Source of the DNA: Desulfopila aestuarii DSM 18488
Lineage (GTDB): Bacteria; Desulfobacterota; Desulfobulbia; Desulfobulbales; Desulfocapsaceae
NCBI GenBank assembly: GCA_945863875.1
Contig: CAMBBS010000029.1
Coordinates: 1-55,958, forward strand
Reading direction: 5' to 3'
DNA: 55,958 nucleotides
Of the stretch, positions 6,577 to 54,342 are shown piece by piece. The position numbers and the translations under genes were made by a program. Positions within the stretch are counted from its first letter, which is position 1. Every line of letters starts with the position of its first letter. The notes beneath the pieces were generated by a model that was not told where the DNA came from, ran no database searches, and worked only from the letters and a program-made list of their open reading frames with translations.

Positions 6577-7236
6577 CTTTTCTTCTGGATTGGTACTGGT
6601 AAATTTTCCCCAGAAAAGATGTATTTTACATATAAATTTGACGAATTAATCAATTTTATATGTATTAGTATTGTATTAGATATATCGACGTCTAATTCTT
6701 ATTTTTGTTAAATAAGCGAGACAGACGTCCAATTTTACCGCGAATTGTCGGAATTAAAGGACTGCAAGGCTGCCTTGCATTCTCGAGGTCTGACGTATAA
6801 GTTTAATGTCGTGTTCTATAATGGTCATGACGACAATATACCACCTTAAGGCTATATGTAACGGTTATATTTTAACATCCTTTAACGCCTGTTGCGATTG
6901 GGCAAACTCCGATTGGATTCGGGCTGGCCGGTTGGCAGTGGCGGCAAAGGCAGGCGACAAGCAGGCAGCGGGAGAGCTGGCCAGGCTTTGAGGCAGCGCC
7001 AATGATACAAGAAGTCGAGGGTGGCTGATAGTATACTTTCTCTCTTGAAAACGTGATCAGGGTGGTCTGAGGAAGTTGATCTGAAGTACGATGCGGTTAA
7101 AAAATTCTTTACAGAAGACATGACCAGAATCCTTAGCTGTTAATTCGCCGGATCCTTACCCCAATATTTCACATGGTTGCTAATCCGAAGTGAGATCCAG
7201 GAAGTCTTTGACTTATGTCATCTTGAAACGTAGTAT
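6577..7236. other. AT-rich gene-free stretch
   Basis: About 660 bases with clearly lower G+C than the surrounding coding DNA and many in-frame stops. A short frame ending at 6991 has a protein-like tail (WIRAGRLAVAAKAGDKQAAG) but cannot be assigned. I see no intact gene, RNA gene or clear promoter. The composition fits acquired, degrading DNA. Confidence 0.4.
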
Positions 7237-20944: not shown

Positions 20945-21215
20945 AATCTGGCAAGACGTCAGCTACCCCGCCCTGAAGGACGGAGCTTGTGCAAGCAAGT
21001 TCCTCTGTTGACCAGCCACAGCCAGGGCCGCAAGGCTAACGGGCTACGTTAAGAAAGAACAGAGAGGCACTCTGGAATGCTCCACCAGTTCCAGGCTCTG
21101 CGACAAGTGGTTCAACAGGTTGAAGGGGTTAAGCCGGTGGTGCTGGTACAAAACCTTTCATTACCATTGCCGGGGTGGTTTTTACTCGCGAAAGTGAAGA
21201 ATTTTAAAGGTAACT
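20945..21215 (+). ncRNA. Omega-RNA (HEARO) of an IscB element
   Basis: This structured region matches the HEARO RNA that guides IscB: GTCAGCTACCCCGCCCTGAA with its complement GGACGGAGCTTGTGCAAG, then CCACAGCCAGGGCCGCAAGG, CTAACGGGCTACGTTAAG and long imperfect stems up to the iscB start. In IscB elements this RNA lies directly upstream of the protein gene and its 5' end carries the guide. By analogy the guide would be the last 15-20 bases before about 20,950, but that is inferred. The nuclease gene is broken, so the RNA is probably an orphan. Confidence 0.7.
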
Positions 21216-21219
21216 TTCA

Positions 21220-21866
21220 ATGCAGCATCTGTTGGTCATAGACAAAAACAAAATGTTTTTGATGCCTTGTCATCCGGCATTGTCGTTGATCTTTGTAAAC
21301 GGTTCATCAACATTCTTGCCCGGGCCAAAGCACCGTTAAAGGATGGTGGTGCAAGCAACTCGATTCGCCATGCCACCGGCGGCAGGTTGCAGGCATTCGG
21401 CCTGCAGGTTTCCTCCTGGTCCGGAGGAAGAACCACGTATAACCGGACGAACCACAGCGACGGAAAATCCCATTGGCTTGATGCCGTTTGTGTCGGTGCA
21501 ACAGGCGGGCGTGTCCATATTCCGCCGGGACGGCAACCTCTCCATGTTTCTGCTGCTGGTAGAGGATCACGGCGGATGTGCCGGGTGGATAACTACGGTT
21601 TTCCTCGAACGTCAGCGAAATCAATACGAGTTGTCAATGGATGTACAACCGGGGATCTGGTCAAGGCACTGGTCAACAAAGGCAAAAAGCCCGGGACGCA
21701 TGTTGGCAGGGTGTCTGTGCGAAAGTCCGGCAGTTTCAATATCAAGGCAGGAGCGGGTACAATACAGGGGATTGCATGGAAACATTGCTCTCTTTTGCAG
21801 CGTGCCGATGGTTACAACTACTACAGAGGGGACGGCGTTTCCTCCTCCACCTGGAGGAAGAGGTAG
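21220..21866 (+). pseudogene. iscB: iscB with the nuclease core deleted
   Basis: The gene opens at ATG 21220 with VIDKNKMFLMPCHPA, the PLMP domain of IscB, but that frame stops at about 21338. A second frame (21267-21866) resumes with FINILARAKAPLKDGGA, then GGRTTYNRT, SHWLDAVCVGATG (the RuvC-III Asp), MCRVDNYGFPRTSAKS, TGDLVKALVNKGKKPGTHVG and the C-terminal GSFNIKAGAGTIQGIAWKHC. Between the PLMP domain and ILARAKAPLKD an intact IscB has RuvC-I, bridge helix, RuvC-II and HNH; all are missing. About 210 codons remain of an expected 400-450. The protein cannot be a nuclease. Confidence 0.8.
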
Positions 21867-45317: not shown

Positions 45318-46034
45318 ATTCTTACTCACGCACACCCCTATGAAATATTTATTCCCCCAGGTACCGAAAAGATAATCGTCGGCACCCTACCGCCGCCGAG
45401 GTTTTCCCAGGGCCGGCTCAAGGAGCGAGATGTCGACTTCTGCTACGGCAGTTGTGATGGCACGCTCTGGCCGGTTCTCGATGAAATCTTTCGTCTTGGC
45501 CTCCGCTATGACAATTCCCGGGAGGCGGTAATCGAACGACAGGAATTTCTCATCCGGCAAAAGATCGGCATCTGCGATATTGTCGAGTCATGCCGGCGGA
45601 GCAAGATGGAGTCCTCGGACCTGGGCATGATGGCCATCCGCCAACGCAATATACTGCGGCAGCTTGGGCTGCATCCGACCATTACAACCCTGATATTTAC
45701 CGGCGGCAACAGCAAAAACGGCCCGGAATATCTGTTTCGCCGGCAATTAAAGGAACAGTTTGACACCGGCGAGACGTCAGTTGCAAAGGCTTATGGTCCC
45801 TCTGATTTGCAGCTGCACTGTGTCGACAGCGATGTCCCGAGAAAACATCAGTTTACTCTTTGCCACAGGACGTACACCACCGTTTCTCTCACCTCTCCCT
45901 CCAATGCCGCCAACCGGGCCATCGGCAGCAGCGTTTTCTACAAAAGACGTAAAGAAGCCCATCCTTCCTACACGACCTTTGACTTTCGCGTCGACCAGTA
46001 CCGGCAGGTTTTTCTGTCATCTGCCGTTGATTGA
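45318..46034 (+). CDS. Uracil-DNA-glycosylase-like protein without an ATG start
   Basis: An open frame of 238 codons carries IFIPPGTEKIIVGTLPPPRF, KIGICDIVESCRRSKM, TLIFTGGNSKNGPEYLF and TVSLTSPSNAANRA, which I recognise as the uracil-DNA-glycosylase-like fold of short DNA glycosylase relatives. The conserved N-terminus (THAHPYEIFIPPG) begins at about 45324. In that frame the only candidates before an in-frame stop at 45297 are ATT (45318) and ACG (45312); the nearby ATG at 45340 is out of frame, and the first in-frame ATG (45606) would delete the fold. So it uses a rare start codon or is a mild pseudogene. It is convergent with cbiK and overlaps its end by 18 bases. Confidence 0.6.
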   Translation: MLTHAHPYEIFIPPGTEKIIVGTLPPPRFSQGRLKERDVDFCYGSCDGTLWPVLDEIFRLGLRYDNSREAVIERQEFLIRQKIGICDIVESCRRSKMESSDLGMMAIRQRNILRQLGLHPTITTLIFTGGNSKNGPEYLFRRQLKEQFDTGETSVAKAYGPSDLQLHCVDSDVPRKHQFTLCHRTYTTVSLTSPSNAANRAIGSSVFYKRRKEAHPSYTTFDFRVDQYRQVFLSSAVD

Positions 46035-46790
46035 TTCCCCGGCTTCCATGATGTGTCGGATGATAAGTTTTTCGAGCCCCGGATGGAGACCCAGGCCGTA
46101 ATCAAGGGATTCCACCGTAATCTTTCTGCTCTGCAGCCGGGTTTGCCAGGAGGATGGGCTGTCACTGACAATGTCTCGGCGATAGTGCATGCCGGCCACG
46201 AGGAAAAGTGGCAGGATGCACACTTCGGTAAAACCACGGTCGGCGATCTCATCGGCAAGGAGGGATGAATCCGGAGATTTTTCCACCACCCCGACAAAAA
46301 TTCTCTCACCGAATTTTTTACGCAGAATTTTTTCCAGCGAGTAGTAGGCGGTCCAGATCGGATGATCGGTACCATGGCCGAGGACCAAAATGGCCTTTTG
46401 CGGCCGCTCGGCAATGACCGGCCGCAAAATTTCCCCCACCTGATGGTAGTCTTCCGGACTGGTCAGCAGCGGCCTGCCGACAGCGCACTTGAGCGGCGAT
46501 GTAGCGGCGATGCGCAGCAGACCGTGGAATTCGGTACCGGGGAATAAATGCAGGGATTGCATGATAACCGTCGGTATCCCTTGGGAGGCAAGCTGACGGA
46601 GAACTTGTGCGGGATGGTCGACGGTTGATTCCTGCCGCCCGTGCAGCTCCCGGGTGATTATTCGCGACGAATATGCCCAGATGATCTCCCTGCGGGGGAA
46701 ATGGCCGCGCAGAGCGGCGTCAATCCGGGAATAGGTGGTAACGGCCTTCGAGGTTGTGCCGAAAGCGGATATAATAATGGGAGTTTTCAT
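46017..46790 (-). CDS. cbiK: Sirohydrochlorin cobaltochelatase CbiK
   Basis: A 257-residue class II chelatase. It opens MKTPIIISAFGTTSKAVTTY; the metal-site motif VLGHGTDHP gives His139, and LVAGMHYRRDI gives His202; HLFPGTEFHG supplies a Glu (87) close to the position used in Salmonella CbiK. There is no signal peptide, so it is the cytoplasmic form that inserts cobalt into sirohydrochlorin on the anaerobic B12 route. The ATG lies exactly at the edge of the second IscB right-end relic, so its ribosome-binding region comes from that sequence. Confidence 0.88.
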   Translation of the reverse strand: MKTPIIISAFGTTSKAVTTYSRIDAALRGHFPRREIIWAYSSRIITRELHGRQESTVDHPAQVLRQLASQGIPTVIMQSLHLFPGTEFHGLLRIAATSPLKCAVGRPLLTSPEDYHQVGEILRPVIAERPQKAILVLGHGTDHPIWTAYYSLEKILRKKFGERIFVGVVEKSPDSSLLADEIADRGFTEVCILPLFLVAGMHYRRDIVSDSPSSWQTRLQSRKITVESLDYGLGLHPGLEKLIIRHIMEAGESINGR

Positions 46791-53678: not shown

Positions 53679-53744
53679 GAATCTCTCCCACCGTGTCTTC
53701 ACTCTCCTCTTGACGTGAAGGTGGTTTCACGATAAAAAAAGAGA

Positions 53745-53905
53745 TGTCAGGGTGTCGCAAGACCAGAAGCATGATCAGAGGGAACCCGGTGTAAATCTGG
53801 GACGGGCCCGCCGCTGTGACCGGGGACGAAAATCGCTGAAGCCACTGAACGTAGTTCGGGAAGGCGCGATGAGTAGGTTGAGCCGGAAGTCAGAATACCT
53901 GCCTT
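53745..53905 (+). ncRNA. Cobalamin (adenosylcobalamin-type) riboswitch
   Basis: Contains all landmark parts of the B12 aptamer in order: GTGTCGCAAGACCAGAAG, AGGGAACCCGGTGTAAATC, CCCGCCGCTGTGACCGGGG, AAGCCACTG, GTTCGGGAAGGCG, and the 3' B12 box AAGTCAGAATACCTGCC. B12 binding normally lowers expression of a downstream gene. Here a hairpin and a strong terminator follow within about 90 bases, so control is most likely by transcription termination. The next ORF is a 48-codon gene. Confidence 0.92.
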
Positions 53906-53944
53906 GACAATTGATGCTGTTCTCCCCGCGGATCAGGGAGAAAG

Positions 53945-53965
53945 AGCGCTCAACTCTTGAGCGCT
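53945..53965 (+). promoter_or_regulatory. 9-bp hairpin between riboswitch and terminator
   Basis: AGCGCTCAA pairs perfectly with TTGAGCGCT across a three-base loop (CTC). It lies between the aptamer and the terminator and could be part of an antiterminator switch, although no alternative pairing with the terminator stem was seen. Confidence 0.4.
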
Positions 53966-53991
53966 ACAGCGTATGTCTGTGGTGAAATCAG

Positions 53992-54031
53992 GGCCCCCGG
54001 ACCAAACTATTTGGTCCGGGGGCCTTTTTTT
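53992..54031 (+). terminator. Intrinsic terminator downstream of the B12 riboswitch
   Basis: A perfect 15-bp stem (GGCCCCCGGACCAAA / TTTGGTCCGGGGGCC) with a CTA loop is followed by seven T residues. Such a stable stem would stop most transcripts unless it is prevented by an alternative fold set by the aptamer. Confidence 0.9.
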
Positions 54032-54072
54032 GTCGCCGGATCAAAACTGTGCATAACATGGAGGATGCGTAC

Positions 54073-54219
54073 ATGGACAAAAGAGAACTGGTGTACACGA
54101 AACAGACAATGCTGGCCGTAAAAGACTGGGATGCTTTTCAGGATGTGCTGAGATTCTGGGCAAAATTGCTGAAACCCGCAACCCTTGCCGCCTGCGCGAG
54201 TGCAGTGAAAAAGAGCTGA
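54073..54219 (+). CDS. 48-residue ORF under the B12 riboswitch
   Basis: ATG at 54073 has a strong GGAGG eight bases upstream (54060-54064) and opens 48 codons up to TGA at 54217: MDKRELVYTKQTMLAV, then a Trp-rich amphipathic helix (WDAFQDVLRFWAKLLKP) and a short tail ending AVKKS. A GC-rich hairpin with T-run follows directly. It lies between two terminators, so it is the only product that the riboswitch could control here. I do not recognise the family. The basic, Trp-containing helix could associate with membranes or bind a partner. It could also be the remnant of a longer gene; there is no sign of further coding in the frame. Confidence 0.5.
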   Translation: MDKRELVYTKQTMLAVKDWDAFQDVLRFWAKLLKPATLAACASAVKKS

Positions 54220-54229
54220 CAAGAAAGGG

Positions 54230-54275
54230 GAGTCCGGCGGTTACGGTTGACCGGCGGGCTCTTTTCCGTTTTACT
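54230..54275 (+). terminator. Intrinsic terminator after the 48-codon ORF
   Basis: GAGTCCGGCGGT pairs with ACCGGCGGGCTC (one mismatch, one G-T pair) with an eight-base loop, then TTTTCCGTTTT. It starts 10 bases after the ORF stop and closes the riboswitch transcription unit. Confidence 0.75.
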
Positions 54276-54342
54276 GTGCAAGAAAAGTTGGCGGGGAGCG
54301 TGGCATTCCTGATAACATTTTATCTCAGCCGGGAGAAAATCA

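Follow-up and report, generated by a model that had tools for sequence, protein, structure and literature searches.

B12 riboswitches occur widely and have been the subject of much study; CbtB and CbiN, both of them membrane proteins, are small subunits of cobalt transporters. The known targets of B12 riboswitches are mostly enzymes or transporters according to PMC11260477, which also describes, at metE and ppe2 of Mycobacterium tuberculosis, short ORFs that lie behind B12 riboswitches and act in cis. In PMC545781, B12 elements are placed before the B12-independent NrdDG genes of D. vulgaris and Desulfuromonas.

The locus considered here lies near the end of a stretch of 55,958 nucleotides (the window; contig CAMBBS010000029.1 of assembly GCA_945863875.1) from Desulfopila aestuarii DSM 18488. 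It is like the known RF00174 regulons in having the same aptamer, a terminator-type platform and, in relatives, a B12/cobalt uptake neighbourhood; unlike them, it appears to regulate a single product, a protein of 48 residues that belongs to no known family. The preferred explanation, to which as a whole a probability of roughly 0.6 is given, is that the locus forms a transcription unit of its own and that its product is a trans-acting accessory or regulator of corrinoid/cobalt acquisition under the control of a B12 riboswitch. Confidence is higher for the gene and its control, and lower for the partner of the protein.

Layout of the locus and its expression platform

The riboswitch-microprotein unit, all the features of which are on the forward strand, is flanked upstream by hemC (PF01379) and downstream by a gene for a Gfo/Idh/MocA oxidoreductase (PF01408), both recognized with Pfam, the latter starting 123 nt past the microprotein stop. 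The complete cobalamin aptamer claimed in the initial annotation is borne out by a match to the full-length RF00174 model (1–189) at 53733–53920, which scores 109.8 bits where the gathering score is 31.5. At 53920–53942 there is a hairpin with the loop CGCGGATCA, assigned, by analogy with the overall architecture of such riboswitches, as the probable P13/L13, the kissing-loop partner of L5. The intrinsic terminator of the riboswitch occupies 53990–54031; its stem, described earlier as 15 bp long, has 17 pairs in the terminator scan (53990–54026), and the T run extends to 54031. The well-placed Shine-Dalgarno sequence GGAGG (54060–54064) and the 48-codon microprotein gene (54073–54219) were also correctly described, the gene being backed by the ORF list, by selection and by the profile search of the order. 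Elsewhere in the window, a short CbiK with no evident signal peptide is encoded at 46017–46790, on the strand opposite to the microprotein gene. A HEARO (omega) RNA (RF02033, 117.3 bits) is found at 20958–21185; it is followed by a 199-aa ORF (21267–21866) which by eye resembles only the C-terminal part of an IscB-like protein, and in which Pfam found nothing.

Concerning the expression platform, folding of a transcript ending at 54008 predicts pairing of the terminator 5′ arm (53989–54003) with the L5 region of the aptamer (53799–53816), most pairs having probabilities of 0.93–0.97; the two segments would be, respectively, the 3′ and 5′ strands of an antiterminator. This pairing takes in L5 bases that should kiss L13, and with L5 shared by the kissing loop and the antiterminator, antitermination would be incompatible with the binding of B12. 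The predicted pairing fits a B12-OFF switch. With little adenosylcobalamin, the L5 region would pair with the terminator 5′ arm, the antiterminator would be formed, the polymerase would read through and the 48-residue protein would be made, while with ample B12 the terminator would form and the microprotein would not be made. The antiterminator, a search for which had been proposed earlier, is thus predicted in the window, but it stands out weakly when members are compared: the AGGG-plus-arm motif occurs in 76/90 places with a median pairing energy of −14.4, versus −11.1 for shuffled arms, with 17% of the shuffles equalling the observed median. So, it can be said that the comparison lends the antiterminator mild support.

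The 75-nt stretch past the stop folds at −30.3 kcal/mol and contains a hairpin at about 54226–54265, similar in 5/6 genus relatives. As to the claim of a second terminator after the stop, the fold is there, but the terminator scan did not list it. The hairpin overlaps a promoter-like sequence, TTGACC-17-TTTACT (54247–54275), probably belonging to the oxidoreductase gene, and the promoter and terminator scans of the window listed neither of the two elements. In the alignment of the seven oxidoreductase-bearing members of the genus, TTGAC[CG] is followed 17–18 nt on by a TATAAT-like hexamer in 7/7, with 6, 6, 6, 5, 5 and 5 of 6 matches to TATAAT in the relatives and 4 of 6 in the window; a strong hairpin overlaps the promoter-like sequence in 6/7, while L109 folds differently. 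The promoter-hairpin region corresponds to 54220–54300 of the window, and its counterparts are in L080, L082, L084, L085, L093 and L109. Judging from the alignment, a separate promoter seems to serve the oxidoreductase gene, and the hairpin may be a terminator, an operator or both.

Distribution, selection and riboswitch linkage

A first search with the 48 residues against 57 relatives, for which a permissive limit of E 10 was set, gave matches in 35/57, some of them unconvincing. With a profile made from 30 members, 116 of the 257 genomes of the order matched at E ≤ 0.01, and a profile of the core returned the identical 116 genomes, all of them with E values of 5.3e-7 or below; the next match had 0.023, which leaves a clean gap between the carriers and the rest. 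Three genomes contain two strong places and every other carrier contains one, to a total of 119; the window's own genome has one significant copy. Contig names place Desulfopila, Desulforhopalus, Desulfofustis and Desulfosediminicola among the carriers, and the named strains include Desulfopila sp. IMCC35006, Desulforhopalus sp. IMCC35007 and Desulfosediminicola flagellatus IMCC35005. No match was obtained in 141/257 genomes of the order (73/148 among good assemblies), although 249/257 carry B12 riboswitches, so the microprotein is not essential to B12 use.

Outside the order, a first profile weakly matched 11 genomes in a draw of 395 from the phylum, at E values from 6.9e-4 to 0.049, the best of these matches being located inside a 216-residue frame. 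They were taken as chance, and so was a 20-residue match in Streptacidiphilus (L197), with an E value of 6e-5 versus candidate stretches only. When the better profile was run on 198 genomes from the phylum, nothing outside the order matched at E ≤ 0.01. To judge from these searches, the microprotein family occurs in one order only.

The test for selection covered a 26-codon core from 99 places, considering the pairs with 0.15 ≤ pS < 0.7. In the gene frame, pN was lower than pS in 1172/1181 pairs, with a median dN/dS of 0.34. Non-overlapping pairs gave pN < pS in 47/47, with a median pN/pS of 0.18 that is flattering, as the pairs with the lowest pN were picked first; seven of the 47 are pairs of free-standing copies, and all seven have pN < pS. 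In the shifted frames, the stop-free pairs showed pN < pS in 40/157 and 111/234, with medians of 1.30 and 1.02. Purifying selection acts on a 30-residue core that comprises E5, K10, DWDxFQ and R27. Conservation over the 99 places is 97 for E5, 99 for K/R10, 90 for D18, 98 for W19, 97 for D20, 99 for F/Y22, 99 for Q23 and 93 for R27; in the fused member L097, G replaces the conserved W19. The residues past position 30 are variable; among the non-fused peptides, the 101 that reach 30 residues have lengths of 30–69. The presence of the ORF in 116/257 genomes of the order, together with pN < pS in nearly every pair, excludes an ORF by chance.

The linkage to the riboswitch was analyzed in two ways. 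Scanning with Rfam found RF00174 upstream and on the same strand in 64/66 places (the window itself, 28/29 relatives, and 17/18 and 18/18 further places), the two misses (L013 and L203) being located at contig ends, where the region is truncated. L177 has a weak Rfam match (37.1 bits) at least 466 nt upstream, with a B12-box motif nearer the ORF. In a motif check of 100 places, both aptamer motifs were found in 93, one motif in six and none in a single place, the sequence of which starts 71 bases before the ORF, whereas among the control windows both motifs were seen in 1/714 and either of them in 4/714. The checks suggested with the initial annotation, i.e., a homologue search in relatives and the adjacency of the homologues to a B12 riboswitch, therefore gave positive answers, and homologues with a synonymous-site bias, the lack of which had been regarded as the mark of a spurious ORF, do exist.

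Some places have a different riboswitch arrangement. In genus g14 (L134, L151, L159 and L167) the riboswitch looks, in our own reading, to be of another type, possibly translational. In three of these places (L151, L159 and L167) the aptamer ends 305–446 nt upstream of the DWDxFQ peptide, which is nevertheless kept, and the first ORF after the riboswitch is a different short one, preceded by a ribosome-binding site recognized by eye. Three cobalamin riboswitches occur within about 2 kb in L206 (G248:C2), where the genes behind them are those of the peptide, of a CbtX-like protein (by eye) and of CbiK. In L112 there is a second cobalamin riboswitch at 6602–6797, on the opposite strand and pointing away from the first.

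The predicted protein and its genomic neighbours

The microprotein is predicted to be a cytoplasmic alpha-hairpin. The AlphaFold2 model, obtained with 70 sequences, has helices at residues 3–15 and 19–44, a mean pLDDT of 75, which is about 87 over residues 11–30, and a pTM of 0.43. The second helix is amphipathic, with a moment over 12 residues of 0.73 in the window and a family median of 0.55. A transmembrane segment, sought as a value above 1.6 on a 19-residue hydropathy window, was found in 0/101 peptides. The core lacks Cys in 53/101 peptides and His in 78/101, so the binding of a metal or a corrinoid through conserved Cys/His is unlikely. Docking on a protein is the most plausible activity. 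The working part would be the first 30 residues or so, with the two helices joined at a K-D-W-D turn, and the second helix, with F22, Q23 and R27, would be the one that most likely docks on a protein partner.

Pfam contained no family above its cut-off for the window peptide or for 30 members, and NCBIfam yielded 0 families for the 30 members. A PDB sequence search gave no significant match (best E 0.06), Foldseek versus PDB gave 0 matches up to E 10, and the open-licence literature searched contained no report of the microprotein. Weak matches to ARM_SRB8 (0.016) and Actin-like 6A (0.06) were taken as chance.

Concerning the genes downstream of the microprotein gene, the count of contexts, made with tblastn, covers 108 of the 119 strong places (100 places plus eight from a further nine); it does not include L208, nor L206, which repeats the place L154. 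The count is of places, not of genomes, G214 and G054 being each represented twice. A TonB-dependent receptor gene is next in 25/108 places and, with its start extrapolated from tblastn, it begins within 12 nt of the peptide stop in 18 of the 25. The next gene codes for a CbtX-like membrane protein in 2/108 places (our own identification, the match to 'Gate' being below cut-off), CbtX being a predicted cobalt transporter in PMC545781, and it is a DUF2162 gene in 1/108. In 6/108 the peptide is fused in frame ahead of CbiK, as established with Pfam for three and by similarity to the clade for the other three, with a signal-peptide-like stretch (by eye) between the peptide and the CbiK domain. 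Altogether, the peptide is coupled or fused to uptake/chelation genes in 34/108 places.

At 18/108 places there is a convergent gene about 46–118 nt downstream, coding for a Fer4 protein in nine and for FeoB in the other nine, and the riboswitch transcript contains no other gene than that of the microprotein. A terminator was detected after the ORF in 9/9 of the Fer4 places, in 1/9 of the FeoB places and in 54/465 control windows. With nothing else to control in these 18 places, the protein most likely acts in trans. An oxidoreductase of the window type, the gene for which the initial annotation considered read-through, is next in only 7/108 places, other or unclassified genes in 44/108, and the contig ends in 5/108.

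The fusions to CbiK are informative about the peptide itself, which should stay cytoplasmic as it precedes a signal-peptide-like stretch, and which evidently does not need a free C terminus. On the other hand, the presence of CbiK in general is uninformative, since it was seen in 132/159 genomes with a completeness of 90% or more. The fusion-type CbiK clade of family f6 was found, at 60% identity or higher, in 10 of these 159 genomes, with the peptide fused in five, located 1.1–2.1 kb upstream in three and not found in two. The fusion in L086 (family f1), on a short contig, was not among the places listed with the f6 CbiK as query, and it may therefore, tentatively, have arisen independently of the f6 fusions. 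In a B12-riboswitch operon of L209 and L210, the TonB receptor gene is separated from an ExbB-like gene by a gene of 221 codons, which in L209 is Diphthami_syn_2 (PF01902).

The genome of the window has five B12 riboswitches. Besides the one described, one precedes a signal-peptide CbiK (Pfam) accompanied by a CbiL-like gene (by reading), and another stands before an operon for a BtuB-like receptor with ExbB/ExbD-like genes (by reading). The others precede a ThiC-family gene (PF01964; L200, G000:C52), possibly a benzimidazole synthase, and a Glycos_transf_3 gene (Pfam; L201, G000:C17). The DWDxFQ motif is absent from these four riboswitch regions. The peptide thus keeps a separate riboswitch, although the uptake and chelation genes have theirs. 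Since in other families of the order the peptide heads uptake operons, we infer that it started out in an operon and lost this linkage in the family of the window; its retention after unlinking argues for an action in trans.

Proposed function and comparison with known systems

From the sequence analysis, the microprotein probably helps cells to cope when B12 is short, and gene context points to a role in corrinoid or cobalt acquisition. It would work in trans, and its likeliest partner would be a part of the acquisition machinery (BtuB-TonB-ExbBD/BtuFCD, CbtX, CbiK), the genes of which it heads in other families of the order. Of the two alternatives left by the initial annotation, this is the one of a new cobalamin-related small protein, favoured by the riboswitch linkage, the purifying selection and the adjacency or fusion to B12/cobalt uptake genes.

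A peptide made in B12 shortage could also adjust the B12 economy rather than serve uptake, by binding an enzyme that depends on B12, a factor of transcription or translation, or an RNA. Repression by B12 and action in trans would fit such a B12-sparing regulator, as would the absence of transmembrane segments from the peptides and of any single fixed neighbour, and the B12 elements before NrdDG (PMC545781) are an example of B12-sparing control in related bacteria. However, the neighbours identified in tight operons are uptake/chelation genes and not B12-dependent enzymes, and no candidate target was found. We regard this explanation as unlikely.

Less likely still is a role of the ORF in cis, in which translation of the peptide would couple the riboswitch to the next gene by termination-reinitiation, the free-standing copies being orphans. 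The 25 places where the peptide overlaps or closely precedes the TonB receptor gene, 18 of them with the tight spacing indicated above, would agree with this, ppe2 of M. tuberculosis being a precedent (PMC11260477), but the convergent gene directly behind the peptide in 18/108 places leaves nothing to couple, the pairs of free-standing copies show pN < pS in 7/7, and coupling would need no conserved protein sequence of 30 residues. As for a spurious ORF or a gene remnant behind an orphaned riboswitch, the other alternative of the initial annotation, it agrees with the shortness of the ORF and the lack of a Pfam or NCBIfam family above cut-off, but it is very unlikely, being contradicted by the selection, frame and distribution results.

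Coming back to a microprotein that acts in trans, it is tempting, although doubtful, to consider it the prototype of a B12-starvation microprotein, i.e., a riboswitch-made alpha-hairpin that would retune B12 uptake or B12-dependent metabolism. If this is true, the B12 riboswitch regulon of the order has its own protein effector besides the genes switched in cis. In the boldest version, the microprotein could feed back on the very RNAs of the riboswitches. A microprotein that is conserved across one order, and that in part of the order is the only target of the riboswitch, would be an undescribed component of B12 homeostasis, and it illustrates that riboswitch linkage can reveal small proteins missed by family libraries. 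The proposal is directly testable, as B12 can be supplied or withheld and the gene is small and usually single-copy.

Among the known systems, CbtB and CbiN resemble the microprotein in being small proteins linked to cobalt uptake, the linkage being here by gene context, and differ from it in that the microprotein family is without a transmembrane segment and without a Pfam match above cut-off. The likeness to CbiK (PF06180) is that six relatives carry the peptide as an N-terminal extension before the CbiK domain, but the peptide does not resemble CbiK: PF06180 gave no match in the window peptide or in 30 members, and the three fusions scanned match it only downstream of the peptide. With ppe2 of M. 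tuberculosis, as described in PMC11260477, the locus shares a short ORF behind a B12 riboswitch. The tight stop/start overlap of ppe2 is not present in the window, where there is a gap of 123 nt with promoter-like sequence in between, while coupling of that type occurs in other members. The M. tuberculosis uORFs act in cis, whereas here the free-standing copies keep a conserved protein sequence and, in 18/108 places, have no gene to be coupled to.
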